Source: Labia minor
Lineage: Eukaryota > Arthropoda > Insecta > Dermaptera > Spongiphoridae
Assembly: GCA_963082975.1 (NCBI GenBank)
Contig: OY720347.1
Coordinates: 31,203,398 to 31,267,397, forward strand
Length of the DNA: 64,000 bases
Direction: 5' to 3'
The notes beneath the pieces were generated by a model, which worked only from the letters and a program-made list of their open reading frames with translations, did no database searches and was not told where the DNA came from. Shown here piece by piece: positions 5,081 through 62,472 of the stretch (the stretch's first letter is position 1; each line of letters begins with the position of its first letter). A program made the translations under genes and the position numbers.

Positions 5081-5364
5081 ATTGTATATAAATATATGAG
5101 AAAATTTATCAGAGTGAGAAAAGAGTTTATATATTTCAAAGATTTAGTCAAATGTTTTTACACTTTTTCTAATTGTAAAAAATACAATTAAATTTAATTC
5201 CAACCCAATTCAAGCATTTAATCAATTCCGATCTTATTGCTATTACAGTTCCCGCTATAACCATTACTGAAAAAATTAAATGATATAAACTTCTGATCAC
5301 CAAAAAAGAAAGAAACCTTTATTTTCGGGGTATGAACCCAATAGCTTTAATTAGCTTACTTTTT

Positions 5365-6018
5365 ACCGACCGACGATAGTAAGGGAGGTATTGTTTTCAC
5401 ACCAAATTTCACATGTGGAGATTTTTACATATCTCCACGAATCATGCATTTTATAAACAGAAAAAAGTATTTTTAGCATGATGTCTGTCCGTCCGTCCGT
5501 CTGTCCGTCCGTCTGTCCGTCCGTCCGTCCGTCCGTCCGTATAGATGTGTACAGCCTGAACGGCTCAACCGATTTTGATGAAATTTGGTATATCTACTTA
5601 ATGCATCAGTGGGATGAATTGATCAACTTTTGGTGCAATTCCGGAAACCGGAAGTGGTAGTATTAGCGATCGACGATAGGAAGGAAAGGGTTATTTTCAC
5701 ACCAAAGGAGATTTTTTTATATATCACCACGAATCATGCACTTTGTATTGGTTTTATCCTCGAGAAAAATCATATTTATTAGTTTTTTCTTGATTTAAAA
5801 TTATATGACGTCATCCAGCCATTCATGACGTCACAGCCTGGTCTTGCATATATATTATAAATAAAATAAAATTAAAAATGTTTATATTTATTATTTATGT
5901 ATCCATATCTGTTTTTATTACATTAATAGATATATTAAAATTATTTGAATCTGTAGCTGGAAATTAATTTATTTCAAACAGTCGGTCGGTTCGGACCTGG
6001 CCACAGGTCAACTTATTT
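5365..6018 (+). mobile_element. Family A HINE/DINE-1-like element, copy A1
   Basis: About 650 bp. The 5' end is TTTTT followed by ACCGACCGACG; the inverse CGTCGGTCGGT-type sequence (here CAGTCGGTCGGT) lies just inside a 3' hairpin GACCTGGCCACAGGTC (5994-6009), which is followed by AACTTATTT. A (GTCC/GTCT)n microsatellite fills 5483-5541. Two related units of about 90 bp (starting near 5371 and 5670) flank the central block. The subterminal inverted repeat, GTCY microsatellite, 3' stem-loop and T-rich target match Helentron-derived HINE elements such as Drosophila DINE-1. It has no coding capacity. Copy A2 follows almost directly. Confidence 0.6.
5483..5541. repeat. (GTCC/GTCT)n microsatellite in copy A1
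   Basis: Tandem tetranucleotide tract within the family A element, giving a spurious Ser-Val-Arg-Pro reading frame. Equivalent tracts lie at about 6144-6200 and 35356-35404. Confidence 0.9.
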
Positions 6019-6020
6019 AT

Positions 6021-6690
6021 TTTTTACCGACCGACGATAGTAAGGGAGGTATTGTTTTCACACCAAATTTCACATGTGGAGATTTTTACATATCTCCACG
6101 AATCATGCATTTTCTTAACAGAAAAAAGTATTTTTAGCATGATGTCTGTCCGTCCGTCTGTCCGTCTGTCCGTCCGTCCGTCCGTCCGTCTGTCCGTCCG
6201 TATAGATGTGTACAGCCTGAACGGCTTAACGGATTTTGATGAAATTTGGTATATTTACTTAATGCATCAGTGGGATGAATGGATCAACTTTTGGTGCAAA
6301 TCCGGAAACCGGAAGTGGTAGTATTAGCGATCGACGATAAGAAGGGAAGGGTTATTTTCACACCAAAGGAGATTTTTTTATATATCACCACGAATGTATT
6401 GGTTTTATCCTCGGGAAAAATCATCTTCATTATGTTTTTCTTAATTTAAAATTATATGACGTCACCCAGCCCTTCATGACGTCACAGCCTCGGGTAACGC
6501 CGGCAACGCCGGCTACTTCAGCTATATATTATAAATAAAATAAAATTAAAAATATTTATGTTATATGCCTATCTGTTTTTTATTACATTAATAGATATAT
6601 TAAAATTATTTGAAATTGTTTCTGTAGCTGGAAATTAATTTATTTCAAACCGTCGGTCGGTGCGGACCTGACCACAGGTCAACTTATTTT
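6021..6690 (+). mobile_element. Family A HINE/DINE-1-like element, copy A2
   Basis: Full-length family A copy in tandem with A1. It starts with TTTTT and ACCGACCGACG and ends with GTCGGTCGGT, the hairpin GACCTGACCACAGGTC and AACTTATTTT. The microsatellite lies at about 6144-6200. It keeps both TGACGTCA octamers and gains a GCCGGC inverted repeat near 6497-6512 that A1 lacks. The second internal unit has lost the 'AATTTCACATGTGG' portion, as in A1, so the two share a subfamily history. Confidence 0.6.
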
Positions 6691-7953: not shown

Positions 7954-8023
7954 CTAGCTGCTCAGAGCTCCTTCGTCGCTCTTCACATCTAGACGGGGGC
8001 TCCGCCCCCTGTACCCCCCCGAG
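7954..8023 (-). repeat. 70-bp G+C-rich module, copy 1
   Basis: A sequence with GGGGGCTCCGCCCCC at its centre and GAGCTCCTTCGTCGC to the left. It is nearly identical, inverted, to 15766-15835, and a diverged relative lies at 12339-12380. Here it stands exactly where the adjacent LINE copy should have its last 80 bases or so. In the 15.8 kb copy it is joined to a family A 3' end, so it may be the 5' part of another HINE-like subfamily. Confidence 0.7.
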
Positions 8024-8580
8024 TGTCCCTATTCTGAGCTATAATCATCTAACTCCTAACCTGTCCCATCTCTCTCACGTTCCTTCCTACATTGTCCACC
8101 CTGTTCCCAATTGGTCTTCCAAACGGACGTTTTCCAATTGAACTCCCCACCAATATATTTTTCCTCTCCCATTCTAGCCATGTGCCCTGCCGATCCCAGC
8201 CTTCTCGCTTTTATAACCCTAACTATATCTAGAGGTGCATAGAGGTCATGCAATTCCTTGTTATGCAGTCTCCGCCATTCCCCGATGTCCTCAACTTTCT
8301 TTGGTCCATAAATGCTGGGAAGAATCCTATTCTCAAATACTCTGAATCTATTCTCATCTCCCAGGGTTATAGACCATGCCTCCCACCCATATAATACAAT
8401 TAATAATTTAATAATTTTGATCCCCTTTGATAATAATTTCCAGATTGCAACCTCGATTTAAATTCTTTGCAAATATTATTCTCTCTGATACTAATTATTT
8501 TGTCTTATCAAATTAATTAATTTCAAACCCCATCAATTTTCCTGCCTCGATTAATTTTTTTATGCTACTTTAAATGTTAT
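8024..8580 (-). mobile_element. LINE RT C-terminal fragment, reverse
   Basis: Read on the minus strand, this gives 'MHDLYAPLDIVRVIKARRL' followed by 'GHMARMGEE', preceded by blocks matching 'RVFENRILRxIYGPK' and the region after YADD. It keeps the residues between HNEELHD and IVR that the 19.7 and 34 kb copies have lost, so it belongs to an older or separate subfamily. It is frameshifted and truncated at both ends. Confidence 0.7.
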
Positions 8581-13547: not shown

Positions 13548-13775
13548 GATTGGTGCAAATCCGGAAACCAGAAGTGGTAGTATTAGCGATCGACGATAGG
13601 AAGGGAAGGGTTATTTTCACACCAAATTTCACATGTGGAGATTTTTACATATCTCCACGAATCATGCATTTTGTATTGGTTTTATCCTCGGGAAAAATCA
13701 TCTTTATTAGTTTTTTCTTAATTTAAAATTATATGACGTCATCCAGCCATTCATGATGTCACAGCCTGGTTTTAC
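13548..13775 (+). mobile_element. Family A element, truncated copy A3
   Basis: Begins at the TTGGTGCAAATCCGGAAACC region of family A, past the microsatellite, and ends after the TGACGTCA pair, the second octamer being mutated to TGATGTCA. It lacks the 5' end, the microsatellite and the 3' hairpin. It retains the full second internal unit, including AATTTCACATGTGGAG, which A1 and A2 have lost. Confidence 0.65.
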
Positions 13776-14655
13776 ATATATATCTATATATATAAAGGAG
13801 AGTGTTTGTATGTATGTATGTATGTATATATGTATGTAATTTGTTTACTTTTTTGCTGTCATAGAAACAAACAAAAAAGAAATTTCCTACTTAACCGACA
13901 CTTTACCGGTAATTTAGAATTATAAACATCAAAAAATAAGAAACGATTTCTATGAAATTACATCACAATATTCTTATATACCTCTATGGTAACATAGGCT
14001 ATAGATTTTATTAATATCTAATCAATAACCGCAGAATTTAATTTTTTAAAGTTTATATATAGTTCTCCGTGTTGTTCATTCAAGAGCCAGGCGTGGCCCA
14101 CTGACTGGCGGACTCATTTTACACAATGTATATAACTCTAGGGATTCCCAATCAAAGAATTATTATAATATTTAACTTTTTATTTTAAATTCTAATATTC
14201 AAATATCATTTCAATTAAATAATTTATTCTAAAAGTTCTCATTTTAATTAATATAATAAAATATTTAAATCATATTTAACTTAAATTATTTTGTATTTAT
14301 TCTTTCCATATTTGAATAGGTACTTCTTTTATTTTAAGGGAGGGAATTAACTATGATCTAATTAATATTAATAAATGAACTTAATAATAAAAAATCAAAT
14401 AAATCCATTAATTTAAATTAATACTATTAATGAATGTATAGATTATTAATTTATCTTTAGTTTTAATCAATACTTTTATACCATTAATTTTTATAAATTA
14501 ATTTTTATAAATTGTCTCAAGTCTCTAACTTTGCATTTTCTCAAATTTTATTATAATTAAAAATATTCAATAAAAATCAAGCAATGAAATTAAAATATCA
14601 AAATGAAATGATCAAGAAATATTATACTCTATTATAACATATACAATACTTATAA
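13776..14655. other. (TATG)n tract and A+T-rich spacer
   Basis: A TATG-rich microsatellite at about 13805-13845 is followed by unassigned sequence, with a small mixed patch at 14070-14130. The rest is A+T-rich. The first part could be the end of another short repeat, but no second copy is present. Confidence 0.4.
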
Positions 14656-14659
14656 ACTA

Positions 14660-15610
14660 TAGGCGGAGGAAATATTAGACGATATCATTGCGGGTTCATG
14701 CCAAATCGATCAACATTAATTAAGATATTTTCATTATGACAGATATTAAAAAAACCGCGAATTCAATATCTCTGTTCACTAATTAATTGTAGACTTTAGT
14801 AAAACCTACGCATGACTCAATAGATCCGGATAAACTTTTTCAAATTTTGATCTTAAAATATATCTTGAAGGTAGTAAAGAAAGAATAAGATGCGGAAATC
14901 AATTGTAAAATATTAGGTGACCCAGACGACTCAAATATAATAGGAGATTCGGCAATTGCAATTACAGATACCGAGGAAAAATTAATCGAGGTAGGAAAAG
15001 AGATGAGGTTTGAAATTAATAATGATAAATAAATATATTTAGAAACAAACAGGAGCAGTATGAACATACAAAATGTAGAATTTGAATATGTAGAAAAATT
15101 GAATGTAATCACGAAGGATAATAATATTTGAGAAGAATTTAAATCGAAGTTGCAATCGGGAAACGCCTGTTATCATGCAGTAAAGAGGCTTATCTCATCA
15201 AAATTATTATAAAAGGGAATGAAAATTAAAATATATAAAACAATTATTTTGCGTGTTGTATTATATGAGTGTGAGACATGGTCTATGATCTTAGGAGATG
15301 AGAGTGGATTCAGAGTATTTGAGAATAGGATTCTCCCCAGCATTTATGGGCCAAAGAAAGATGAGTACATCAGGGAATGACGTACGAGAGATGGAACAGA
15401 GGCTCAGGATAAGGACACTTGGAGAAATGTGGTTGTAGCTGCCAAGAACTTTCGAGTACCGTTGAGCCACGCATGGTCTATGACCCTGGGAGATGAGAGT
15501 AGATTCAGATTATTCTTTCCAGCATTTATTGGCCAAAGAAAGATGAGGTCACCGGGGACACTTGGAGAAATGTGGTTGTAGCTGCCAAGAACTTTCGAGT
15601 AGATAGATAT
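14660..15610 (+). mobile_element. LINE reverse-transcriptase fragment, rearranged
   Basis: The most 5' reaching LINE copy here. The peptide 'GFMPNRSTLIKIF' and the later 'DS-IDPDKLFQI' match early RT palm/finger blocks. Next comes 'ILGDPDDSNIIGDSAI', the YADD-box region with the motif altered to DPDD, then 'VEFEYVEKLNVITKDNNI' and the C-terminal tail. The tail is duplicated: GGACACTTGGAGAAATGTGG followed by GCCAAGAACTTTCGAG occurs near 15414-15460 and again near 15557-15601. There are many stops and shifts. Confidence 0.75.
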
Positions 15611-15835: not shown

Positions 15836-15991
15836 TTATAAATAAAATAAAATTAAAAATATTTATTTTATATCCATATCTGTTTTTTATTACATTAATA
15901 GATATATTAAAATTATTTGAAATTGTTTCTGTAGCTGGAAATTAATTTACTTCATCGTCGGTTCGGACCTGGCCACAAGTCAACTTATTAT
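15836..15991 (+). mobile_element. Family A 3' end, copy A4 (chimeric)
   Basis: Carries the 3' third of family A: TTATAAATAAAATAAAATTA, the GTAGCTGGAAATTAATTTAC block, a shortened ATCGTCGGTTCGG and the hairpin region GACCTGGCCACAAGTC, then AACTTATTA. Instead of the usual left part it has the 70-bp G+C-rich module. This indicates module swapping or a distinct subfamily with a shared 3' end. Confidence 0.65.
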
Positions 15992-16309
15992 GAAATATAT
16001 TTACATTAAATTAAAATTATATCACATTCGGCAAACAATTTTAAATTTAAATTGAACCATTTACATTAATACGCCACCTCCTTGTTTTTTTTTCAAAATA
16101 TGATAATTTCATTAATGAACTTCTTACTGATATATTTATAATTTTTTTTTTAAATTTTCATTAAGATCTTTGAATAAAATTAAGCTTATTGATTTAATAG
16201 AATTATAAACTCATTGATTCGATTTAAGATGTATTCTAAAACACCACTAATTTTAAAAATTAATATTTGTTTATTTTATTTTATTTTAATATGTATTTTA
16301 TTTGAAATA

Positions 16310-19323: not shown

Positions 19324-19692
19324 TCAATTTTTACCGACCGACGATAGTAAGGGATGTATTGTTTTCACACCAAATTTCACATGTGGAGATTTTTACATAT
19401 CTCCACGAATCATGCATTTTGTATTGGTTTTATCCTCGGGAAAAATCATCTTCATTAGTTTTTTCTTAATTTTAAATTATATGACGTCATCCAGCCATTG
19501 ATGAAGTCACAGCCTGATCTTACATATATATTATAAATAAAATAAAATTAAAAATATTTATGTTATATCCATATCTGTTTTTTATTGCATTAATAGATAT
19601 ATTAAAATTATTTGAAATTGTTTTTGTAACTGGAAATTAATTTACTTAAAACCGTCGTTCGGTTCGGACCTGGCCACAAGTCAACTTATTTT
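19324..19692 (+). mobile_element. Family A element, recombined short form, copy A5
   Basis: The 5' end TTTTT-ACCGACCGACG and the 3' end with GTCAACTTATTT are both present. However, the first internal unit runs directly into sequence that in full copies follows the second unit (CATTTTGTATTGGTTTTATCC). The microsatellite and the central block of about 290 bp are absent. This is what recombination between the two roughly 90-bp internal repeats would produce. One octamer TGACGTCA survives; the other reads TGAAGTCA. Confidence 0.7.
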
Positions 19693-19726
19693 ATATTTAA
19701 AATTAAAAAATGAATTTCTAATATAT

Positions 19727-20212
19727 CTATCTATCTATCTCAGTGGCTCTACCGAACTCGAAAGTTCTTGGCTGCAGAAATCGCACTTCTCCAAGTATCC
19801 CTATTCTGAGCCACAACCCTGCAATCCGCACCCTCTTTCATCTCTCTCACGTCCCTTCCTACATTATCCACCCACTTCCTTGGTTTTCCAAGCAGACGTT
19901 TCCCACTCGGTCTCACCACCAATATATTTGTCGCTATTCTTTCCTCTCCCATTCTAGCCACGTGGACTGTCCATCGCAGCCTTCTCGATTTCATAATTCT
20001 AACTTTATATGCAATTCCTCGTTATTCATTCTCCGCCATTCCCCGGTGGCCTATCTTTCTTTGGCCCATAAATGCTTCGCAGAATCCTATTCTCAAATAC
20101 TCTATATCTACTCTCGTCACCTAAGGTCATAGACCATGCCTCACACCCATACAATAAACCGGCAAAATAATTGTTTTATATATTTTCATTTTTATCCCCT
20201 TTGATAATAATT
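19727..20212 (-). mobile_element. LINE 3' fragment, reverse, with ATCT tail
   Basis: Minus-strand frame 19994-19749 contains 'KSRRLRWTVHVARMGEER' and 'WVDNVGRDVREM', ending 'AAKNFRVR'. Upstream are the ILRxIYGPK and CEAWSMTL blocks. The 3' end abuts TATCTATCTATCT (19727-19740), a microsatellite tail as in RTE-type LINEs. It shares with the 34 kb copy the loss of the residues between HNEELH and the IIKSRR block, so the two form one subfamily. Confidence 0.8.
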
Positions 20213-20908
20213 TTTGGTGCTTTTTTGTCTAGGGATTTTTTGATAATTATCGGCGATCTACCGAAGATCCATGAACCCTCAAAATTAGGGCTTTCTCTTT
20301 CTGCTTTTTTATGATTTTAAAATTTATTCTTTAATTTGTAACTAATATTTATATAACCTGTATGTGTGAAACGAAAAATATTCATTTATTCAAATATTAT
20401 CTATTTTTTTAATTTTCTTAGTTTTTATTGTTTCTTTTTTTGGATGACACTGAATTCAAATTTTGTTATAGAATGCAGAAATTGTATTTTGTATCAATTC
20501 TTTCTATTAATATACCTAATATAAATATAAATAATAGAGAAAAAAAATTTGAATAATTCAACATGTTTTTTGTTTTAAATACTGACCATGATTGTTCAAA
20601 ATGTTTTTCTTTTATTTCAATTTCTATCGTTAATATGTTAGAAATAATAACTGCTTCATTTCATATCATCGAAATAATGGCCAAATGAATACCAAAAATT
20701 TACCTTTCAAAAAATAATAGTGTTCGTTATTTAAATGAATGAATATTTTTGTTTTATATATAGAAATCAAGTGTTGAAAAAAGAAATTTTAAAAATAATT
20801 TACTTTAAGAAAACAATATACCAATAGATAATAACATATAGATAATATAGATAATAATATTACATTAATTTTACAAAATTTGTTTAGTTTAGAATATTTG
20901 CAATGATG
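20213..20908. other. A+T-rich spacer
   Basis: Low-complexity A+T-rich DNA with a short mixed patch at 20235-20300. No feature was recognised. Confidence 0.55.
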
Positions 20909-20910
20909 TA

Positions 20911-21441
20911 CAGTAGAACCTCGATAAATTAAAGTCCAAGGAAACACAAAATATTTTAAGTTATAAAGGTTTTAAGTTATATGATAGTCTATGTTAGGGA
21001 TAGGGGGGGGGGGGTTAATAACATTTTTTTAAAGGCTAATTCATGTCTTTTCTTAAAATTATCTAACCAGCCATTGCTGGCTTTAAAATTTTGGATTTTC
21101 AGCGATTTAGCGAACTCTTTAGCTTTTTCTTTCAGTATGGGTTCATTAACACTGATGTTTTTGTTTCGACACTGTTTGAACCACGTAAACAAACATTGTT
21201 CTAAATTAGGGAATTCGGCAACTTTTTCGTTTTTTATATCACATTGAAGACTTTCTCCTGATTCTTGTTTCTTCAAGATTTCAGCTTCTGAGGGCCAATA
21301 CAGAGATTACTTATTTAAGTTATAGAGGATGCGTATTTTAAGTTATTGAGGTTTTGGGCTCTGATGGGAAGGGAACATATTATTTTTTGAAGTTATAGAG
21401 ATTTTTAAGTTACCGAGGTTTGAGTTATCGAGGCTCTACTG
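20911..21441 (-). mobile_element. Internally deleted pogo/Tigger element
   Basis: The ends CAGTAGAACCTCGATAA and, reverse-complemented, CAGTAGAGCCTCGATAA are the classic Tigger-type terminus, with TA on both sides (20909-20910 and 21442-21443). Only the N-terminal coding part remains, on the minus strand. The catalytic DDE domain is deleted, so this is a non-autonomous remnant. Confidence 0.9.
20989..21276 (-). pseudogene. Tigger transposase N-terminal fragment (CENP-B-type HTH)
   Basis: A frame of 95 codons. Residues about 22-80 match the CENP-B/Tc5-type DNA-binding helix-turn-helix, with 'LEQCLFTWFKQC', 'LKEKAKEFAKSL' and 'NGWLDNFKKRHEL', the last being the recognition-helix signature. In an intact element this domain binds the TIRs and is followed by a DDE nuclease, here absent. 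The C-terminal residues after FKK come from readthrough past a G run at 21003-21014. The reading frame is well preserved, which suggests a fairly young copy. Confidence 0.8.
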
Positions 21442-21558: not shown

Positions 21559-22067
21559 ATATATAGTAAGCGCCCACATATAATAATATTATAAATTATT
21601 ACATTTTTTTTTTATTTTTCATTTATTGTTTTATTAATTGCCAAATAAAACATAATCGCATTTAATTAAATATTTATTGAACTTAAAAAAAAATTTTTGA
21701 ATTAAACTTATTCCTGGTATTATAAAATAATGCTACATATATATATATATATATATAAATTCAACATGGAGATATTTTAAAAATACCCTTTTAAACATAG
21801 TTTTAAAGCATAAATGTTGTATCTTTAGTACAAAACTGATTATGTATAAGATTTTTGTATATAAAAATATTATTACACACATTCATAAGTTAATTACTTC
21901 TATTTTAAATATTATATATTATGATGTACATAATTTGTAAAAGAAATATTTTTCAATACAATTTCTTTTTAATTAATTGTTTATTATTTCTTTTTATAAA
22001 TAATTAAAATAATAATAAATAATTTCAGGTATTTTTTTATTTTATTTTAATTTTAAAAATATTTATT
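21559..22067. other. A+T-rich spacer with (AT)n
   Basis: Includes an (AT)n run near 21738-21758. Otherwise low-complexity A+T-rich DNA. Confidence 0.6.
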
Positions 22068-22633
22068 TATCTATCTTCTTGACTCGAAAGTTCTTGCAAA
22101 AACCATATTCTTCCAAGTACCCCCATCTTAAGCTACACCCATCCAACTTTTTTCCCATCTTTCTTATACCCCTTTCTACATTGTTCCCAATCTCGTCCTT
22201 GTTCTTCCACCCGGACGTTTCCCAATGGTTCTCCACCCAAATATATTTTTCGCTAATCTTTCCTCTTTAATTCTAGCCAAGTGTCCTGCCCATCGCAGCC
22301 TTTTGATTATATAACCCTAACTATGTCTCGAGATACATAGAGTCATGCAATCCTTCGTTATGCAGTTTCCGGACCTCATGTTTGCCCATAGAAGAATCCT
22401 ATTTTCAAAGATCATCCCTGACACCCTTAAATAATTGTTTTATATTTTTTAATTTTGATTCACTTTGATAATAATGTTGACGAGATAAGCCCCTTTATTG
22501 CATAATAGCAGGCCTTACCGGATTGCAATCTCGATTTAAATTCTTCTCGAATATTATTATCCTTCATGATTACTGATTAGTGATTACAGAACCCAAGTAT
22601 TTAAATTTTTCTAAATTTTCAAATTCTATTTAA
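22068..22633 (-). mobile_element. LINE 3' fragment, reverse, eroded
   Basis: Begins after CTATCTTC with GACTCGAAAGTTCTTGC, the LINE 3' end. It passes through the VARMGEER-equivalent region, the ATATGTCTCGAGATACATAG-type spacer retained also at 8 kb, and the region upstream of CEAWSM. Frames are broken and a short T-C-rich duplication is seen. An older copy of the family at 34 kb. Confidence 0.65.
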
Positions 22634-26172: not shown

Positions 26173-26921
26173 CAGGGATGGGCATTAAGTCGATCGCGAT
26201 CGACTGGTGGACCGCCGAGTCATTTTAAAGTGATCGCCTTTACTCATTGCCTTTTTTACTTAAACTACTCCTTAGCATATAAAAAATTCCATTACTCGGG
26301 GAAGAAATAACTAAAAATATAAACGAATTGTTTTCTATAACTATTGAGGAAGATGAAGTTCTTCTTCTTCAAAATGACATTTTAAAAGCACATAATTCAG
26401 ATCCTACAAATATTTTTTGAAATTTAATGGACGAAGTTAAGTATCCTAATTTAAAAGGTCTCGCATTAAATTTAACATCGTTCTTTGGCTCTACCTACCT
26501 ATGTGAATCTGCATTTTCTACGCTGAATATAATTAAATCAAAATATCGCTCCCGTCTTACAGACAATCACCTCGAATGCAGTACAAGACTGGCAGTTAGT
26601 AATTATACACCAAGATTTACTAAATTAGCAGAGGATATGCAGTGTAAATCTTCTAATGCGGACAATTTCACATGACTTTATCTTAAATAATAATTCGAAT
26701 CAGAATATTTCTTATGAACTTGATATTTTTATACTTTTATAATCTTTAAATTTTGTTTGAAAATATATACCTAAGTTCCTTTCTTATTCTATTTTTTTAG
26801 TTACCTATGTACATTTATACCACATTGTTTATTATTATTATTTTAATAAATATCTGGTGGACCGACTTATTGTAAAAAAATTAAAAGTAGACCGCATCCT
26901 AAAAAAGTTTGCCCATCCCTG
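26173..26921 (+). mobile_element. Inner hAT element with transposase C terminus
   Basis: Terminal CAGGGATGGGCA at both ends, inverted, with exact 8-bp duplications TTGTAAAA at 26165-26172 and 26922-26929. It lies within the outer hAT. CTGGTGGACCG occurs near both ends in the same orientation, at about 26202 and 26855. It is 749 bp, far shorter than an autonomous hAT, and keeps only the 3' part of the transposase gene. Exact duplications and an almost open frame indicate a recent insertion. Confidence 0.9.
26289..26675 (+). pseudogene. hAT transposase C-terminal (hATC dimerisation) fragment
   Basis: A frame of 129 codons, open except for one TGA at 26418 where Trp would fit ('IF-stop-NLMDEV'). 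The second part, from the Met at 26427, reads 'YPNLKGLALNLTSFFGSTYL', 'CESAFSTLNIIKSKYRSRL' and 'LTDNHLECSTRLA'. These are the conserved blocks of the hATC dimerisation domain, closest in style to transposases related to the vertebrate ZBED5/GTF2IRD2 group. The BED finger and most of the RNase-H-like catalytic core are absent, so it cannot be an active transposase. Confidence 0.85.
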
Positions 26922-28933: not shown

Positions 28934-29230
28934 GTTGGAGATATAAGGGCAGTCAAGGAACAATTAATTAGCAAATTATTATATTTTAATTTTAGTCTAC
29001 GTTTCGAACGTTAGTCTCGTTCTTCCTCAAGACTAAAAAGATGTTAATTGATACACCTAGTTATTTTTTGTGGAATATAATGTCTGTACAATATTATTAA
29101 TAATAACTCTGTTTTGCTTCTGATTGCTTTTCTGAAGAAGAATGTGACTAGTTTTCGAAAAGTCGGCAAAAATTAAAATATAATAATTTGCTAATTAATT
29201 TAATCTTTGACTGCAACTTCTTTCTCCAAC
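28934..29230. mobile_element. MITE-like inverted repeat, 297 bp
   Basis: Ends GTTGGAGA and TCTCCAAC. The inverted arms share TTAATTAGCAAATTATTATA and TTTTAATTTT, and carry related TCGTTCTTCCTCA / CATTCTTCTTCAG words further in. No convincing target duplication was seen and the class is unknown. Confidence 0.5.
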
Positions 29231-31439: not shown

Positions 31440-32530
31440 AATTTATAGTACCGGGACCCCGAGCCTCGGCTCGGTACTTAAGTTAAAAAAAATGATTCAT
31501 TATTATTGGATTTGGCTGGTAATATTAATACCTGGGACACCGAGCTCTCGCTCTACCCTTTAAAAAATATTGATACACAATTCTTTAATTATTTATTACA
31601 ATTATTAAATGTTACACATTTGCATCAATCTGATTAAAATTAATGAACTTGTGCTCCTCAATAATACATAAATATATAATATATAGGTACATATATTTTT
31701 TTTCTATAGTGTTTTTTTGAAAAACTGTTTAGCGCCCCAAGTGGTTATAAAACAAACTAAAGACAAAAAAACGTGCTTTGCAGCTTTTCGGAATTAAAAA
31801 AGCAAAATTGGCAGTCGTGGGACTGGCCGACAGAAGTGAAAACTTCTGCGTAAGAAATTTTAAAACAGACGAAATTCGCGCTATTTCACGAGAAAGATGA
31901 ATTTCATATGCATGTATATATATATAACTTATATATTATTTTAAACATATATTTTAAACAAATTTGTAACTTATATTTATATATATATAAATACACAACT
32001 TTGTTTAAAATATTGCAATACGAACTGTTTTATAATTCTTATCTCTAACATAAAATATATATTTATTATGTGAAGTTCATTTCGTATAATTTTGATTATA
32101 TATGTATATATGAAATGAACTTTACATAATAAATATATATTTATATGTTAGAGATAATTTATAAAACAGTTCTAATGACAATTCAAATTTCGCGCTCTGT
32201 TATAAGAAATTTGAAAGCAGATGGTTTCATGGTGTTGGTCACGATCACGCGAGTTCTATACTTTTTCCCCATCCCGCAAAAGTGCTCAACGCCGCTAAAG
32301 AAGTTTTCACTTCAAAAATTATTTAATATTTGGAAATATATCTGACTTATAGAAAAAATGAATATTAATTAAAGAAAGAAATAGTTTTTAAAATATCCTG
32401 AATAATATGTAACAATTTTCAAGATAGAAATTTATTACAATATTACAATTATTAACTGTTGCATCATTGCATCAATCTGATTAAAATGAATGGAACTTCG
32501 GGTACTCAATAATAATAAATAAAATAATAT
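31440..32530. repeat. Composite region with hairpins and 85-bp direct repeats
   Basis: It opens with a G+C-rich hairpin CCGAGCCTCGGCTCGG (31459-31474) inside GTACCG...CGGTAC, with a worn partner at 31528-31560. A direct repeat with TTGCATCAATCTGATTAAAA lies at about 31583-31668 and again at about 32430-32516. Between them is an inverted repeat of about 61 bp (32022-32083 and 32112-32172, about 94 percent alike). The flanking direct repeats suggest an element with LTR-like ends or a tandem pair, but the class is unknown. Confidence 0.4.
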
Positions 32531-33000: not shown

Positions 33001-34159
33001 ATACATATATACAATTTTAGCTAGCATAATAAGATAAGATATAAGTATAAATAATTGAACTACTTTAGTTAAACTTTATATTATTATATATTCATTTTAT
33101 TTCTTAGATGGATTTATAGATACAGAAAAATAAATTTATATCTGTATATATTGCAATTAAATAAATTGCTTTCTAAAATTACCTTTCTGGAATATACTAG
33201 TATAATTAAAGAATTCTTTATAATTTTGTTAAATATTATTACTTGTACTTACATCTGGAGGTTATATTAAGCATTGAATATATATATATATTTAATTAAT
33301 ATAATGATATGTTTTTCTATATGAACCCCTTAGTTTCCTTTGTCAAATATTAAATAATGTATTTATTTTTAATTCCTTTAATTTCTTTCTTTCTTGAAAT
33401 TTTTTGTATTTATTAACCTTATTTAATTAGTGATTTACTCTAGATCTTTTCCTTGCAGGATTATCCACTGAAACTCTACATCATTCCATTTAATTTCTAA
33501 AAGTTTGAATATTTTTTTTTTCATTAATAATATGATATTAAACTAATATTATTAAGAAACAAAAAAATGAATTAAATTGTAAAGAATAATTTCTGAAAAT
33601 TGTTAAATTTTATTTGTGTTAGCAAAAATAAATAAAAATAAAATTTAGTATCACTACTTAGATTTAAAGAATCATTCTTTCAATAAACTAAAACAATAAT
33701 AATTTATAAAGTTTTAATAACGACAATTATCGGTATTATCTTTGATTATATTGCAAACTGCATAACTATATTTATTTATAATTATTAAGAAATAGTAAGA
33801 ACAGGCATACAATTAATATAATGAATTATTTACTTTTTTTACCACCTTTGATTCCTTTTTTATTTTTCTTACTTACTTTCTTAAATGTGAGAGATTTTTG
33901 GCTTAAAAATAAATATAATAAATTAGTACTTTAGGTGTTATAGTGTATTTTTATATAATTTATTTAAATTTTATTATTTTCTTTATTGAAGGTCACAAAT
34001 GAAATTAGTAGTATGAACCACAGGATTAAAACTAGGGAAGTGGTAAGCCATGATCGATGTGGTTGAAATATTGTAGAGTATTATATATATACAATATATA
34101 ATATTATATATGAGACTGTAATTTTAAGAAAATTATTATTTTCTTTAATTATTTATCTA
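33001..34159. other. A+T-rich spacer
   Basis: Low-complexity A+T-rich DNA. Nothing recognised. Confidence 0.6.
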
Positions 34160-34170
34160 TCTCTGTAGCT

Positions 34171-34976
34171 CTACGGAACTCGAAAGTTCTTAGCCGCAGC
34201 AACCACACTTCTCCAAGTATCCCTATTCTGAGCAACCACCCGCCAATCCCTACCCTCTCCTATCTCTCTCACATCCCTCCCCACATTATCCACCCACCGC
34301 GTTCTTGGTCTTCCATGCGGACGTTTCCCACTCGGTCTCCCCACCAATATATTTTTCCCCATTCTTTCCTCTCCCATTCTAGCCACGTTCACTGTCCATC
34401 GCAGCCTTCTCGATTTTATAATTCTAACTATATATGCAGTTCCTCGTTATGCAGTCTCCGCCATTCCCCGGTGACCTCATCTTTCTTTGGCCCATAAATG
34501 CTTCGCAGAATCCTATTCTCAAATACTCTATATCTACTCTCGTCACCTAAGGTCATAGACCATGCCTCACACTCATACAATACAACCGGCAAAAAAATTG
34601 TTTTATATATTTTAATTTTTATTCCCTTTGATAATAATTTCGACGCGATAAGCCCCTTTATTGCATTACCCGATTGCAACCCGATTGCAACCCGATTGCA
34701 ACCCGATTGCAACCTCGCTTTAAATTCTTCTCGAATATTATTATCCTTCGTGATTACAGAACCTAAGCATTTAAATATTTCTACATTTTCAAATTCTACA
34801 TTTTGTATGTTAAGACTTTGTGTGTTAATACTATTCCTGTCTGTTACTAAATATTTTGTCTTAGCATTATTAATTTCTACCTCCACCTCTTTTTCTGCTT
34901 CGATTAATTTTTCTACGCTATTTTTAATTTCAATTGCTGAATATCCTATTATATTTAAGTCGTCAGCATAACTCAA
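34171..34976 (-). pseudogene. LINE reverse transcriptase C-terminal region
   Basis: Frame 34976-34428 (182 codons) starts 'MSYADDLNIIGYSAIEIKNS', so it begins at the RT catalytic YADD motif and lacks the fingers and most of the palm. It continues 'VFENRILRSIYGPKKDEV' and ends 'RRLHNEELHI'. A loss of about 22 bp then shifts the frame; the next frame (34392-34171) carries 'NVARMGEERMGKNILVGRPS' and 'RPRTRWVDNVGRDV' to 'AAKNFRVP'. An in-frame tandem gain of 33 bp (11-bp unit, 34669-34712) gives a 'LQSGCNRVAIGLQSGNA' stretch in place of the short LQSGNA of relatives. It cannot make an active polymerase. Confidence 0.85.
34669..34712. repeat. 11-bp minisatellite inside the LINE
   Basis: Four tandem copies of CCCGATTGCAA. 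Three extra units equal 33 bp, so the coding frame is kept. The LINE copies at 8 and 22 kb have a single unit. Confidence 0.9.
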
Positions 34977-35230
34977 TACTTGAATTTTTTTGTTTAGTTT
35001 TTCTTTAATTATAATGATTTAAAATCATTTAATTATTATTACTTTTCATTCAAAGGCGTGTGGGGTTAGAGGTATGGGATATGCTCAGATGATATATTAA
35101 TATATTAAATATTTATAGGTATTTTATTTTATAAATAAATAAGATATATTTATATTAATATTCTCCTAACTGGTTTAGAGTACATATCAACACACAAACA
35201 TTTACACAATCGCTCACTCAAATTAAAATA

Positions 35231-35896
35231 CACTTTTTACCGACCGACGATAGTAAGGGAGGTATTGTTTTCACACCAAATTTCACATGTGGAGATTTTT
35301 ACATATCTCCACGAATCATGCATTTTCTAAACAGAAAAAAGTATTTTAGCATGATGTCTGTCCGTCCGTCTGTCCGTCTGTCCGTCCGTCCTTCCGTCTG
35401 TCCGTATAGATGTGTACAGCCTGAACGGCTCAACCGATTTTGATGAAATTTGGTATATTTACTTAATGCATCAGTGGGATGAATTGATCAACTTTTGGTA
35501 CAAATCCGGAAACCGGAAATGGTAGTATTAGCGATCGACGATAGGAAGGGAAGGGTTATTTTCACACCAAATTTCACATGAGGAGATTTTTTTACATATC
35601 ACCACGAATGTATTGGTTTTATCCTCGGGAAAAATCATCTTCATTATGTTTTTCTTAATTTAAAATTATATGACGTCACCCAGCCCTTCATGACGTCACA
35701 GCCTCGGGTAACGCCGGCTACTTCAGCTATATATTATAAATAAAATAAAATTAAAAATATTTATGTTCTATCCATATCTCTTTTTTATTACATTAATAGA
35801 TATATTAAAATTATTTGAAATTGTTTCTGTAGCTGGAAATTAATTTACTTCAAACCGTCAGTCGGTTCGGACCTGGCCACAGGTCAACTTATTTTA
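35231..35896 (+). mobile_element. Family A HINE/DINE-1-like element, full copy A6
   Basis: TTTTT-ACCGACCGACG start, (GTCC/GTCT)n at about 35356-35404, central block, second unit, two intact TGACGTCA octamers, CCGTCAGTCGGTTCGG and the hairpin GACCTGGCCACAGGTC followed by AACTTATTTT. It lies about 250 bp from the LINE at 34 kb. It is the best reference for the family in this window. Confidence 0.65.
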
Positions 35897-36179
35897 TTTG
35901 ATTTTCAAATTATTTTTAATGCTTTTAGAGTTTTAGTTGTAATTAGTAAAAATTGATTAATTTTTTTTTTAATTATTTAATAATTTATTGTTTTTTATTT
36001 TTTAAAGTATAATATTTCAATATAAAAATTATTTATAATTATTATTAATTTTTAATTTATTCCTCTTAGAGAATGATTTTAAAATTATTCTTTTTCTTTT
36101 TTTTTTATACCTGTATAATATTTATTATTATTTATTTATTCGATCTAAGCAAAAGAACAAAGAAAAGAACATTTTTTTT

Positions 36180-37606: not shown

Positions 37607-37620
37607 TACTTCATTAATTA

Positions 37621-37856
37621 TTATTATTATTATTTGCGTTTGGACCATCTGGGATCACGCAAAGCTCCCACATTGTGGTTGCTAATTTTTTGAAGTAATC
37701 CTGCTGGTGCAGGGTTATTTAGAACCAGGCTTGTCAATTCCTGGAGCGGGAGGCGGCTGATGTTAAATTGAATTTATTAGAAAATTTTTGTTCTTAGTTA
37801 GAATCGAACGCCGACTTCATGTGTAGAAAATTGCCACTATACACGCACGGCTAAGC
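37621..37856 (-). mobile_element. tRNA-headed SINE, 236 bp, with 14-bp target duplications
   Basis: Exact duplications TACTTCATTAATTA lie at 37607-37620 and 37857-37870. On the minus strand it starts with a tRNA-like head (A box about 37847-37856, B box GGCGTTCGATTCT at about 37799-37811). A body with CTCCAGGAATTGACAAGCC and CAGCAGGATTACTTC follows, then GGGAGCTTTGCGTGATCC and an (AAT)n tail. Such duplications and the 3' repeat tail mark target-primed reverse transcription by a LINE partner. It is the short sibling of 61949-62457. Confidence 0.85.
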
Positions 37857-37870
37857 TACTTCATTAATTA

Positions 37871-38660: not shown

Positions 38661-38762
38661 TATATACTTATATGTATAAATGTATAATTTACAATTTATT
38701 TATATTTTGAGATTGTTAGCAAAAAAAAAAAAAAACAAGTCTCGCTGTTTTTCTATCTATTT

Positions 38763-38873
38763 ACTATCTCGCCAGAGATAGCATTGCGATCACGAAAATT
38801 TTCGATGTTGAGATTTTGATGTTTTTATACGTTTTGAAGGTTCCTGAATCATTTTCACTAAGGTTGAGAAAAA

Positions 38874-38921
<48 letters not shown>

Positions 38922-39400
38922 TGTGTATGTATGTAGGCAAGATTACGCAAAAACGGTTTGAGCTAGAATGATGAAATTTGGTACATGGACATTATTCAAA
39001 ATTCATAGTTTTCTATCAACTTTTGAGAAATGTAGCTCAACCGGAAGAGGGTCATTACCTACAACGTTTTGATTTTTTTTCCTCTAAAGTGACCGTAAAA
39101 ATAAAGTTATATGTTTGATAATTTTTCACATGATTAATAATTGTATAAAACTGCTATATATAGAATTTCAGCTTGATTGATTCGCTGAAATTACCAGAAT
39201 TAATTTTTTAACACTGCAAATCTCACGCGCCAACACGTGACGTGGTGCCATCAACAAAAAGCCAAACATGCGCTGGTTTAATATTTATTATTTATTATTT
39301 ATAATTTATAATTAATTAAATTTAATTTAAATATAATATATTATATTATTTAATCCAATTCAAATTTCGAGATAGTCGAGTGGAGACACTCCAGCTAATT
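38763..39400 (-). mobile_element. Family B HINE-like element, copy B1
   Basis: Read on the minus strand, it starts AAAATTAGCTGGAGTGTCTC, with CTCGACTATCTCG close behind. It ends with the hairpin GCTATCTCTGGCGAGATAGT and an A-rich flank. An (AC)n microsatellite lies near the 3' third (38876-38931, TG-rich on the plus strand). The terminal hairpin, subterminal inverted repeat and central microsatellite parallel family A, although sequences differ. An internal hairpin has AATTTCAGC and GCTGAAATT arms. Three relatives lie at 59-61 kb. Confidence 0.6.
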
Positions 39401-40929
39401 TTCTACTCATTTCATTCAACTTGTCAACACGAGTCTAGAATGATATTATAAAAAATATAACATGTTTACATGTATCTCAGTGTACTGAAAATTTCTAAAA
39501 TAATTCTTTGATTAAGTATTTAATATCTATGATAAAGTTAATGTTTTTTTGTTTAAAAAAAAAAAATATATTCAGCAAGTGTAAAAATAACATTAAATAT
39601 ATTTAGTAAAAACAGTAAATTTTTAATATGAATATATTATTCATTAAATGATTATTTCTTTTAATCATTTATATATATTCTCATTTAATTATTTAAATTT
39701 AATGAATCAGATATTTTACTTATAAAATATATTTGAATATTAACCTAGGTTTTTTTTTTGAAAATTAAAAACTAATTAATGTATAATACAAATTCACAAT
39801 ACTTTACACAATAATTAATATAATAATTAATAAGGTATAATAGAATTTATATATATGATTATTTTTAATTTTGTAACAATTAATTATTTATTAAAATAAA
39901 TTAAAAGTAAATTCACCATTTAAAATTTTTTTTGTTTTAAATTTAAAATTTCGAGAATTTAAATTTGTTTTACACACAATTTTGAACTCTTAAATAAAGT
40001 GAATAAAACAATGCAAATTAATATCTATTTAAAAAAGTATATGATTAAATATTAATACCTATATATATAAATATTATAAGCCTATTTTTTATTTAACTTT
40101 ATTAAAATAATCTGATAAAATAGTTTATAGTTTGTAAAAAAATATTAATTCAACTATTTATTTATTGATTAAGTTTAAAAAATGAAATATAAACAATTAT
40201 TATAAACGACTGAATAAAAATTAATTAATATACCCTTTCAAACTTAAAAACGTATCAAAAACAATATAAATACAATTAGAAAAACAAAGATCAAGAATTT
40301 AATTATTTAATTAATTGATTTCATTACTAATAATTATTAAATTTGATTAAAATCATATATTAATAAAATGTCTGCACGTATTACAAAGAATATAATTTAA
40401 AATTTTTTTGGTGTGTATAGTGATAAAATGTTGATCTCTAAATATAAATCTCATCAAGGTTTCAAAAATATACTATAAAAATGATATGAATATAAAAATG
40501 AGCTTAAATCCTGAAAGTCAAGGAAAAAATAATAAAAAATAAATATCTATTTCAATGAAATAAATATTAATATAAAAATAATCAAAGTATAATAGAATAA
40601 TTTATTAAAAATAAATAAATAAATTGAACATACAGCATTTAGATTCATTAGATAATTAAAATTTTATAATTCTATTGATATCACATCTGTAAAAATGATT
40701 ATATATAAACATATTAGATCAAAAAGATAAATAGGTATATAGAAATGTGAATAAACTGAAGTTACTTGTCAAGAATTTTAGATAATTTTTCATCTGTATA
40801 AATTGGTTCATTTTAGTTTTAAATCGTATGGATACTATCTGATTTAAAGTCATGTTTTTACAAATGTTACATATTGAAAAGATTAGTATGTCTTTAAAAA
40901 AAAAATTGACACTTGAAATTTTAATAAGC
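39401..40929. other. A+T-rich spacer
   Basis: One of the longest featureless A+T-rich runs in the window; only short TA and A runs are seen. Confidence 0.6.
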
Positions 40930-52295: not shown

Positions 52296-52613
52296 TTTTT
52301 GAAATATTCAATTTTCTTTTCATCCAATTGCTAGAAAAATACGTATATTTTATAAAAAAATATATTTTTTTTATCCAAAATAAAAAAAAGATATTTTTAT
52401 TTAATTTTTTAATAATTTATTTTAGGCTCTTTTTCTGACTCATTATTATTATAATTATTATATATATGAGTCAGAAAAAGAGCCTAAAATAAATTATTAA
52501 AAAATTAAATAAAAATATCTTTTTTTTATTTTGGATAAAAAAAATATATTTTTTTATAAAATATACGTATTTTTCTAGCAATTGGATGAAAAGAAAATTG
52601 AATATTTCAAAAA
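52296..52613. repeat. Perfect 148-bp inverted repeat with 22-bp loop
   Basis: The arms 52296-52443 and 52466-52613 are exact reverse complements with no mismatch that I can find, separated by an A+T-only 22-base spacer. No TSD or known TIR motif lies at the outer ends. The flanks return at once to ordinary unique A+T-rich DNA. Confidence 0.95.
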
Positions 52614-58085: not shown

Positions 58086-58959
58086 TATTTTTTTAATATT
58101 TAACTTTAATTTCTATTAAATAACAAATAAATACTTTTCATAGTTTTTCTTAATTCAATTCTTTCAAAAGTAATATTTTGATAATTTTTTTTTTTGTTAT
58201 CTTATCCATAAGAAATTTAATGTTTGTAATTTTTAAAATGTGTCACAATATGAAATTCGTTGAAAATGTAATTTTTTTTTTTTTTTTTTTGCTGTGTTTT
58301 GACTTTCTTCCTTTTCCTTATAATTACAAGAGCAAAGAACACCTGGATCTAATATGATAGGTAGATGGATAGATAATATACGTACAGTGAAAAGTTGATA
58401 ATTGAGATAGGAAAATGGAAAGAATCGCTTGGGGCACATTGTCAACTTTTAGTTAATCATCACGTAACCAATATTGAACAACCCAATTTGAAATAGATAA
58501 CTTTTTAATCAGGACAAGTTTTATATTAAATCGTTAGCATGCAATCTCCATTTAAAACTTCAATTTCGTCAATTAGGTAGTCTTCAAATAAAAGTTTCTT
58601 TAGTGCCTCCAGGGACTTAGATCAAATTAACTCTCCAAATCAGACAGTTGATAGAATTCTATTATTGTTGTATTGATTAAACTATGATTCTAAAATAAAT
58701 TAAATTTAAAATTATAACTAAAAAATAATTTTTTGATCGTAATTATATAAATTTTTGTTAATTTATTGTCTATAACTTTTAAAATCATTTGTGATAAAAT
58801 AACAATATTTTCGTATGTCTTTACGTTTTAAGGTTTCTAAAATTATTACGGTTTTATGTGTTTGTTCTGTGTAAACACTCGACAACCTCTAAATCAATTT
58901 GGATAATTAAGAAATTTCAGCCAAATCTTATCTATACCTCTTTTCTTATCACTTATAAA
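58086..58959. other. A+T-rich spacer with a weak unique patch
   Basis: A T run at about 58272-58291, a weak mixed patch at 58440-58660 without recognised content, then A+T-rich DNA to the first clustered family B element. Confidence 0.5.
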
Positions 58960-58960
58960 A

Positions 58961-59576
58961 TTAGCTGGAGTGTCTCCACTCGACTATCTCGCAATTTGAA
59001 TTGGATTAAATAAAAAAATATATTATATTTAAATTAAATTTAATTAATTATAAATTGTAAATAATAAATATTAAATCAGCGCATGTTTGGCTTTTTGGTG
59101 ATGGCACCACGACACGTGTTGGCGCGTGAGATTTGCAGTGTTAAAAAATTAATTCTGGTAATTTCAGCGAATCAATCAAGCTGAAATTCTATATATAGTA
59201 GTTTTATACAATTATTAATAATGTGAAAAATTATCAAACATATATCTTAATTTTTACGGTCACTTTAGAGAAAAAAAAATCAAAACGTTGTAGGTAATGA
59301 CCCTCTTCCGGTTGAGCTACATTTCTCAAAAGTTGATAGAAAACTACGAATTTTGAATAATGCTCATGTACCAAATTTCATCATTCTAGCTCAAACCGTT
59401 TTTGCGTAATCTTGCCTACATACATACACACACACACACACATACACACACACACAGACATTTTTCTCAACCTTAGTGAAAATGATTCAGGAACCTTTAA
59501 AACTTATAAAAACATCAAAATCTCAACATCGAAAATTTTCGTGATCGCAATACTATCTCTTACGAGATAGTAAAAA
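58961..59576 (+). mobile_element. Family B HINE-like element, copy B2
   Basis: Starts TTAGCTGGAGTGTCTCCACT (preceded by AAAA) and ends CTATCTCTTACGAGATAGT plus an A run. The (AC)n tract lies at about 59422-59457. It is collinear with B1 (which is inverted), including GTTGGCGCGTGAGATTTGC and the AATTTCAGC/GCTGAAATT internal hairpin. No coding capacity. Confidence 0.65.
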
Positions 59577-59882
59577 TTATTAAATATAAATGCTTAATAG
59601 ATAAATTTTATTAAAATGGGGTATTATAGGGTTATCTTGATGATTTAATTTACATTTAATCAAAGACCCAATTTTATTTAATCTTGACAATTTTTGTAAT
59701 TATGATAATCAAATTAAAAATAATAACTATAATTTTTGATTTAAAATTTTTTTAAAGAATATTATTATTATGTATTTTTTAAAATACTGCCTTATACAGG
59801 CCAGTTAAGAGAACTTCTCGAATTGCGGTCTATGGGACGGAGTCCATTCAGCCTCCGGGATAAAAATTGGGAAGTTATTTGA
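59577..59882. other. Spacer between B2 and B3
   Basis: A+T-rich, with a small mixed patch at 59788-59870 (AGGCCAGTTAAGAGAACTTC and following) of unknown nature. Confidence 0.5.
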
Positions 59883-60521
59883 AAATTAGCTGGAGTGTCT
59901 CCACTCGACTATCTCGCAATTTGAATTGGATTAAATAACATAATATATTATTTTTAAATTAAATTTAATTAATTATAAATTATAAATAATAAATATTAAA
60001 CCAGCGCATGTTTGGCTTTTTGTTGATGGGACCATGGCACGTGGTGGCGCGTGAGATTTGCAGTGTTAAAAAATTAATTCTGGTACTTTCAGCAATTCAA
60101 TCAAGCTGAAATTCTATATATAGCAGTTTTATACAATTATTAATCATGTGAAAAATTATCAAACATATATTTTTATTTTTACGGTCACTTTAGAGGAAAA
60201 AAAATCAAAACGTTGTAGGTAATGACCCTCTTCCGGTTGACCTACATTTCTCAAAAGTTGATAGAAAACTATGAATTTTGAATAATGTCCATGTACCAAA
60301 TTTCATCATTCTAGCTCAAACCGTTTTTGCGTAATCTTGCCTACATACATACACACACACATACACACACACATACATACACACATACACACACACACAC
60401 AGACATTTTTCTCAACCTTAGTGAAAATGATTCAGGAACCTTCAAAACGTATAAAAACATCAAAATCTCAACATCGAAAATTTTCGTGATCGCAATACTA
60501 TCTCTGGCGAGATAGTAAAAA
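59883..60521 (+). mobile_element. Family B HINE-like element, copy B3
   Basis: Same orientation as B2. Starts AAAATTAGCTGGAGTGTCTC and ends with the intact hairpin ACTATCTCTGGCGAGATAGT and AAAA. The CA-rich microsatellite at 60339-60402 yields a Thr-His string fused to a 35-residue pseudo-frame. B4 begins with no intervening unique DNA. Confidence 0.65.
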
Positions 60522-61142
60522 TCTGGAGTGCTCCACTTGACTATCTCGCAAATTTGAATTGGATTAAATAACAGATTTTATATTTAAATTAAATTTAATT
60601 GATTATAAGTTAAAATTAATAAATAATATATATTAAACCTTTTTGTTAATGGCACCACGTCACGTGCTGACGCGTGATATGTAGTGTAAAAAAATTAATT
60701 TCGGTACTTTCAGCGATTCAATCAAACTGAAATTCTATATATAGCAGTTTTATACAATTTTTAATCATGTGAAAAACTATCAAACATATATCTTTATTTT
60801 TACGGTCAGTTTAAATCAAAACGTGGTAGGTAATAATCCACATTCGGATGAGATACATTTCATAAAAGTTGTTAGAAAACTACAAATTTTGAATAATGCC
60901 CGTGTACCAAATTTCATTATTCTAGCTTAAACCTTTTTTGCGTAATCTTGTCTACATACACACACACACATATATATATATACCCAGAGAGAGAGAGAGA
61001 GAGAGAGACAGACGGACAGACAGATATTTTTCTCAACCTTAGTGAAAATTACTCAGAGACCTTCAAAACATATAAAAACATCAAAATCTCGACACCGAAA
61101 ATTTTCGTGATTGCAATACTATCTCTGGCGAGATAGTAAAAA
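60522..61142 (+). mobile_element. Family B HINE-like element, copy B4
   Basis: Tandem with B3. The start is decayed to TCTGGAGTGCTCCACTTGAC; the end has the intact hairpin CTATCTCTGGCGAGATAG. The microsatellite differs from its sisters: (AC)n, (AT)n, (GA)n and CAGA units at 60955-61025. It is the most diverged copy in the window, with deletions in the mid part (loss of the GCGCATGTTTGGC region). Confidence 0.65.
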
Positions 61143-61399
61143 GTAGCGCCACCGATCAACAAAATCAAGATTAAGGTTGAGAATACCCGTTTTACTGATC
61201 ATCCTCTTAGGTACTGTCCTTTGGTAGGTTGTACAAAATACAGAGGTTTTTTTTCTAAATTATCAAATTATGATAAATGAAATTACGTAATGTTGAATGT
61301 TAAATTTAAAAAAAATAAATTGTATAATAATTCTATAATTTTAAATCAGAGCTAAACAAATTTCTTAAATTTATTGCATTAGTGAAAACGATCCTAGTA

Positions 61400-61830: not shown

Positions 61831-62019
61831 ATTCATTGATCAATCATTGCTTTATTCAATGTCCAAACAAAATATTCTTTGATAATCATGCACTCCTCTT
61901 TTTTCTATAAGTAGATTAAAATAATTTATTTAGTTCAATATTTAATATTATTATTATTATTAATTATTATTATTAATTGCGTATGGACCGTCTTGGATCA
62001 CGCAAAGCTCCCATAAATT

Positions 62020-62246
62020 TTTAGAAGCGCATCGCATCCTCATGGTTATGATGTGATTGCTGATGGCATTGACTTCTAATATTGAAATTATGATCTTCTT
62101 GTTCACAATGAACGCCACGCCCAGAAGTGGTAAACCTCTTCTAATTCGCTTGGCCGTCTTGCTCTTGAATATGCGATAGTTCTTATAGTCCATTGTATTT
62201 TCCATCCGTGAATCTTGTCTCTTGAAGAGCAATTATCTGGATATTC
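62020..62246 (-). pseudogene. LINE apurinic-type endonuclease fragment
   Basis: Minus-strand frames read 'NIQIIALQETRFTDGKYNGL', with the ALQETR motif whose Glu is a catalytic residue of LINE endonucleases. After a frameshift comes 'NYRIFKSKTAKRIRRGLPLL', then 'GVAFIVNKKIIISILEVNAI' and 'SNHIITMRMR'. This is the N-terminal third of an RTE-like endonuclease domain; the catalytic His/Asp part and the RT are absent. It lies inside the retroposon at 61949-62457 and is not functional. Confidence 0.8.
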
Positions 62247-62385
62247 TATCACGATTCATGGTTGCTTGTTTTGAGGTTATCCTGCAGGAGCAGGCTTTGT
62301 AGAACCAGGGCTTGTCAGTTCCTGGAGCTGGGGCATTAATTAATTAAATAATTAAATAATTAAATAAATATATAATCTTGAGTTC

Positions 62386-62457
62386 TATGCTGGGATTCGA
62401 ACTCAGGCTTCCTGTGTAGAAATCTCGTACTCTACCCACTCAGCCATGCTGCCCCAA
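62386..62457 (-). promoter_or_regulatory. tRNA-like head with RNA polymerase III A and B boxes
   Basis: GGCTGAGTGGGTAG near the 5' end and GAGTTCGAATCCC about 40 bases on match A- and B-box consensus. The T arm pairs well, but the acceptor and anticodon arms do not complete a cloverleaf. It would drive transcription of the retroposon from its own 5' end. Confidence 0.7.
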
Positions 62458-62472
62458 TTCAATATTTAATAT

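Follow-up and report, generated by a model that had tools for sequence, protein, structure and literature searches.

A retroposon unit of 509 bp runs from 62457 to 61949 on the minus strand of the 64,000-nucleotide stretch of DNA analysed here (the window), between exact direct repeats of 15 bp at 61934-61948 and 62458-62472. The coordinates, the strand and the exact 15-bp target duplications that an initial annotation had given for this unit were correct. Its parts, listed from the 5' end of the element to the 3' end, and a related shorter SINE are as follows.

62458..62472, no strand: target site duplication (TSD) flanking the element on its 5' side, reading TTCAATATTTAATAT on the plus strand, an exact 15-bp repeat
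62383..62457, minus strand: tRNA-like head, with A box at 62446-62436 and B box at 62403-62393
62335..62382, minus strand: AT-rich linker, 6% GC
62259..62334, minus strand: SINE body, predicted to form two small hairpins and also present in the SINE at 37856-37618; perhaps a decayed endonuclease start
62014..62258, minus strand: LINE endonuclease slice, recognisable from 62245 and interrupted by one frameshift; the short SINE does not have it
61979..62013, minus strand: 3' tail, hairpin-capable, shared with the short SINE
61949..61978, minus strand: simple repeat at the 3' end, TAA/TTAATAAT-type
61934..61948, no strand: TSD flanking the element on its 3' side, an exact 15-bp repeat
37618..37856, minus strand: related SINE of 239 bp that lacks the slice and is flanked by a TSD of its own, TAATTAATGAAGTA

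A TSD of this length is rarely matched by chance: in 4000 random draws of two 25-base sites 524 apart, no match of at least 15 occurred, and a single one of 3000 AT-rich site pairs at the same spacing reached 15. GC content by part was 0.51 in the head, 0.06 in the linker, 0.55 in the body, 0.38 in the endonuclease slice, 0.57 in the tail and 0.00 in the end repeat. No reverse transcriptase was seen by eye in the six frames of the unit (Pfam scans covered the endonuclease frames). Because the unit is short and holds a partial, frame-broken endonuclease as its sole LINE enzyme code, we regard it as non-autonomous; being short, non-autonomous and bordered on both sides by the 15-bp TSD, it has the properties of a SINE.

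The head of the long copy matches the A box and the B box at 11 of 11 positions each, against consensus strings that were entered by hand. Its score against the Rfam tRNA model was 18 bits, under the 29-bit cut-off, and the head was not among the matches of an Rfam scan of the whole window, in which ARAGORN likewise found no tRNA. A true tRNA gene was therefore rejected for this position, and we call the head tRNA-like, as had been proposed initially; the two complete boxes bear that description out, though the Rfam score is under the cut-off. The head of the short SINE matches the same hand-entered strings at 9 of 11 positions at best (A box) and 10 of 11 (B box) and gave no Rfam match. Similarity between the long and the short head is weak, being confined to 29 nt (blastn, E 0.027).

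The short SINE is itself bounded by copies of TAATTAATGAAGTA at 37857-37870 and 37607-37620, the first three bases of which overlap the end repeat; a match of at least 14 occurred in 1 of 4000 random pairs placed 253 apart. With these boundaries the element is 239 bp long and not 236 bp as first described. A blastn comparison of the unit with the window aligned the bodies of the two copies at 82.9% identity over 76 positions (37750-37676 in the short SINE) and their tails at 89.7% over 58 nt (37670-37613), in agreement with the original claim that the tail recurs in a SINE elsewhere in the window. The core of the tail has 3 mismatches in 35 nt, the same small hairpin is predicted in both copies, and TAA-type repeats end both. 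Within the window there are two related copies, one of which has the slice, and the tail is present at two places, both of them SINEs. After the shared AGCAACCA, 5 bases precede the tail in the short SINE versus 245 in the long copy, a junction that we read from the sequence and at which automatic alignment places the gaps elsewhere. The tail begins at the same base in both copies, and ATG stands at both slice junctions.

In the slice, about 230 bp encode the central part of a LINE endonuclease; from 62245 it reads through about 77 codons with no stop and one frameshift. It was compared with a profile built from three RTE-type endonuclease sequences that were entered by hand. We took these three references to represent the endonuclease fold because Pfam assigned all three to Exo_endo_phos (best E 6.7e-15) and a PDB search with the reference profile gave three matches, all exonuclease or endonuclease entries, the best being exonuclease III. 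Among 2847 six-frame pieces of the window, the frame containing GVAFIVNKK ranked first with this profile (E 3.2e-8), and the frame containing ALQETR, taken alone, ranked third (E 0.22). In pairwise comparison with the three references the slice scored 82, 90 and 93; 2000 shuffles for each reached at most 48, 50 and 46. A frameshift-tolerant alignment covered profile columns 29-106 with one frameshift, the columns beyond about 101 corresponding to the tail. Direct Pfam searches with the slice frames returned no family, and PDB sequence searches with the slice returned nothing credible, a single row at E 1.1 being judged a chance match. The two motifs picked out at the start are endonuclease code on the evidence of the profile, with the amendment that a single frameshift, unmentioned at that time, separates them. 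The slice may come from an RTE element rather than from another LINE clade, RTE being the one clade with which it was compared.

Beyond the window, the same endonuclease profile gave 2 relatives of 27 in prokaryote genomes, both in bacterial records and 27% and 24% identical. None of 108 and none of 196 pattern matches in viral contigs were confirmed as relatives. The tail pattern was met at two loci in the viral contigs, L003 and L004, of which L003 was judged a chance match (61% GC, unlike flanks); the body pattern had no match, and a plasmid collection gave no match.

If the unit contains one contiguous piece of a LINE, the SINE body should encode the start of the endonuclease. A first local test gave no signal: the long body scored 15 and the short body 17, where 60 shuffles averaged 16. 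When the alignment was instead extended from the slice, the body of the long copy scored 1.3 with the pooled profile, a value reached by 67 of 200 shuffles; with the three single references, 136, 42 and 5 of 200 shuffles scored as high, and a repeat with the third reference gave 12 of 500 shuffles, the score also being reached by 10 of 200 stretches taken elsewhere in the window. For the short SINE, the 13 bases that precede the slice were attached to the body at the corresponding base. Here 0, 14, 5 and 6 of 300 shuffles scored as high with the pooled profile and the three single references, respectively, and the pooled score of 12 recurred in 3 of 1500 shuffles and in 6 of 600 stretches from elsewhere in the window. 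The corresponding alignment spans 22 columns in register with the slice, up to a Trp column, with a single frameshift, and the signal was kept under three of four other scorings (2, 0 and 0 of 200) and disappeared with the harshest stop penalty. In the long copy, the 22 columns ahead of the slice contain two stops and one frameshift, whereas a stretch of the slice scored 49 with the third reference, and none of 100 shuffles exceeded 19. A 5' LINE part may lie behind the head: the endonuclease slice is there, and the body signal is fair in the short SINE and absent to weak in the long copy. The SINE body probably derives from a LINE, as a decayed endonuclease start, a claim that we keep at probable since the references were entered by hand and several tests were made.

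Neither edge of the slice carries a target duplication: the longest repeat across both junctions is 5 nt, a length reached in 885 of 2000 shuffles. Together with the outer duplication, this absence points to insertion of the whole unit in one go, and in all likelihood a single RNA carried the 509 bp, which the initial annotation had already described as moving together.

The explanation that we favour, at a little better than even probability, is a single insertion of a non-autonomous retroposon made of a tRNA-like head and RTE-like LINE pieces, in which the slice was regained by a template jump. RNA polymerase III, guided by the two boxes in the head, would probably have made an RNA that carries the head, the body, the RTE-like LINE endonuclease slice, the 3' hairpin and the TAA-type repeat. 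A LINE enzyme would then have recognised the tail, and target-primed reverse transcription would have produced the 15-bp duplication. The body would probably be a decayed start of endonuclease code, which the slice continues in register, and a jump of reverse transcriptase between LINE and SINE RNA at a matching place could have returned a fresher slice to an older SINE. Such a regain is suggested by the body being far more decayed than the slice. Capture of the slice by a template jump is accordingly worded here as slightly more likely than its origin by deletion. Several results weigh against the favoured explanation. It is drawn from a single 509-bp copy, which a DNA-level rearrangement of one SINE copy could also have produced, and the partner LINE is putative: no LINE bearing this tail was found within the window, and the other LINE copies there were rejected as partners, the three 3' ends inspected differing from the SINE tail. 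Pfam and PDB were blind to the slice when searched directly, and the profile was built from hand-entered sequences; the long body fails the pooled test for an endonuclease start; the signal of the short body is lost under a harsher stop penalty; and neither head reaches the Rfam cut-off, that of the short SINE having in addition an imperfect A box.

Compatible with the favoured explanation, and in our estimate evenly balanced between true and false, is the reading that a single event gave rise to this copy and to no other, so that no family of the 509-bp form ever existed. The slice is present in one of the two related copies in the window, and single jumps have been published for R2 and LINE-1 (PMC3414825, PMC13174262, both in excerpt).

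Deletion offers a different direction of descent, in which a tRNA-headed, internally deleted RTE-like element came first, its 5' part continuing from the body into the endonuclease slice, and a further internal deletion gave the 239-bp SINE. We consider this reading tenable, though less probable than the favoured one. The in-register body and slice favour an element that held both from the outset, and the register is seen in the short body with the pooled profile (score 12) as well as with each single reference; the third reference favours the long copy too (5 of 200, then 12 of 500 shuffles), but its score there is equalled by 10 of 200 other window stretches. One deletion would suffice, the shared start base of the tail and the ATG at both slice junctions would allow a microhomology deletion, and 5' parts of RTE elements have been published as SINE components (PMC3747384, PMC7245038, in excerpt). 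However, the extra junction bases in the short SINE are not expected from a plain ATG-to-ATG deletion, the first local test of the body (15 and 17 against a shuffle mean of 16) was negative, and decay has gone much further in the long body, with its pooled score of 1.3, than in the slice, a stretch of which scored 49 over a shuffle maximum of 19 with the third reference.

It is unlikely, in our judgement, that the 509-bp form is a multi-copy transitional family, namely a tRNA-promoted, internally deleted RTE LINE in which endonuclease code survives and which is turning into the 239-bp SINE; the body of that SINE would be what decay has left of the first part of this endonuclease. If many copies were to share both junctions, they would give a stepwise view of a SINE body being taken from the coding region of a LINE, and would tell gain by template jump from a leftover of deletion; a single copy would be another chimera of a sort already described.

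A nested insertion, in which a LINE fragment dropped into an older SINE, is very improbable: the slice does lie between two SINE parts that are just 5 bases apart in the short SINE, but it has no target duplication of its own at its edges and no LINE 3' end of its own. An assembly or DNA-repair artefact joining unrelated pieces is more improbable still, since, even though the unit is known from a single sequence, the outer TSD matches across all of it and its parts follow the same order as in the second SINE.

The derivation of SINE bodies from LINEs is reportedly an established idea, to judge by the title of a 2018 paper by Kojima. The kind of element described here looks like one already known, with a small-RNA head followed by 5' and 3' RTE-like LINE pieces. 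Papers given below by PMC number are represented by excerpts, and the comparisons extend as far as these excerpts go. In hagfish, SINE1-1_EBu, SINE2-9_EBu and SINE2-10_EBu consist of a small-RNA head and then 5' and 3' pieces of an RTE LINE, and the origin proposed for these bipartite SINEs is internal deletion and chimera formation, template switching being one route (PMC7245038). The hagfish elements and the unit have in common the small-RNA head, the 5' and 3' RTE pieces, which are putative in the unit, and TSDs of similar length. They differ in that the 5' LINE piece is 5' UTR in hagfish and endonuclease code here, and in that the hagfish 3' piece is from an RTE LINE, while the LINE origin of the present tail is putative (PMC7245038).

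Published SINE/LINE pairs have 3' ends in common, and those listed with RTE or Bov-B tails include Bov-tA, Bov-A2, MAR4, RTESINE1 and RTE1-N1_LA (PMC3747384). The likeness of these five to the unit is one of description, the part of the 5' end that they hold being unspecified in the excerpt (PMC3747384). Among insects, HaSE1 of Helicoverpa armigera is a tRNA-derived SINE with an RTE-LINE-like 3' end (PMC3272025). It resembles the unit in its tRNA derivation, its RTE-like 3' end, putative in the unit, its terminal trinucleotide repeats and its direct repeats of 5-18 bp, but its body is termed unrelated to known sequences and its description, as excerpted, has no endonuclease part (PMC3272025).

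R2 and LINE-1 have also been described as forming chimeras with foreign RNAs, tRNA among them (PMC3414825, PMC13174262). These template-jump chimeras and the R2 SIDEs are like the unit in joining a tRNA or other RNA to a LINE in one insertion, or the 5' and 3' parts of a LINE to each other; unlike in the unit, the foreign RNA in the R2 and LINE-1 jumps is followed by a LINE that extends all the way to its 3' terminus, and the tRNA pieces joined to LINE-1 are mostly antisense halves (PMC3414825, PMC13174262). Here a sense tRNA-like head is combined with a slice from inside a LINE and with the tail of a SINE. Published examples exist of template jumps, of derivatives with internal deletions and of SINE parts that come from RTE elements (PMC3414825, PMC13174262, PMC7245038). 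Of the original interpretation, the single retroposed unit is supported, each of the two origins that it offered, template switching and internal deletion, has evidence in its favour, and the expectation that it would be newly informative about how SINEs arise is weakened by the RTE-derived SINEs already in print (PMC7245038, PMC3747384). An endonuclease slice between a SINE body and its tail was not met in the literature searched, nor were the letters of this tail and body, which leaves their absence from print unproven.

The window holds further repeats and transposon remnants. The region 58954-61145 holds three copies of a repeat of about 640 bp, of which the last two lie side by side; the copies are 80-93% alike, and an inverted copy, up to 96% alike, lies at 38757-39405. 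Another repeat, of about 660 bp and holding GTCC arrays, forms a tandem pair at 5356-6690, with full or partial copies at 13550-13827, 15836-16016, 19331-19694 and 35232-35899. Stretches that match their own reverse complement, foldback or MITE-like, occur at 52296-52613 (97%), 32022-32172 (85%) and 28934-29230 (71%). Fragments of another LINE family lie at 34150-35018, 19728-20213, 14925-15382, 8019-8440 and 22020-22628, and 34428-35018 gave a weak Pfam match to reverse transcriptase that is below the cut-off (E 4.6e-5); LINE 3' ends near 34150 and 19728 have GATAGATA-type repeats, unlike the SINE tail. DNA transposon remnants were found at 20989-21306 on the minus strand (Tc5-type DNA-binding domain, E 2.3e-22) and at 26421-26675 on the plus strand (hAT dimerisation region, E 3.9e-6).

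At 5365-5170 on the minus strand, a tRNA above the Rfam cut-off (31.1 bits) appears to resemble mitochondrial tRNA-Met, and the stretch behind it, in the invertebrate mitochondrial code, presumably resembles the start of nad2. Such an order of genes is that of arthropod mitochondria and would hint that the host is an arthropod. The stretch at 5365-5170 is probably a nuclear copy of mitochondrial DNA.
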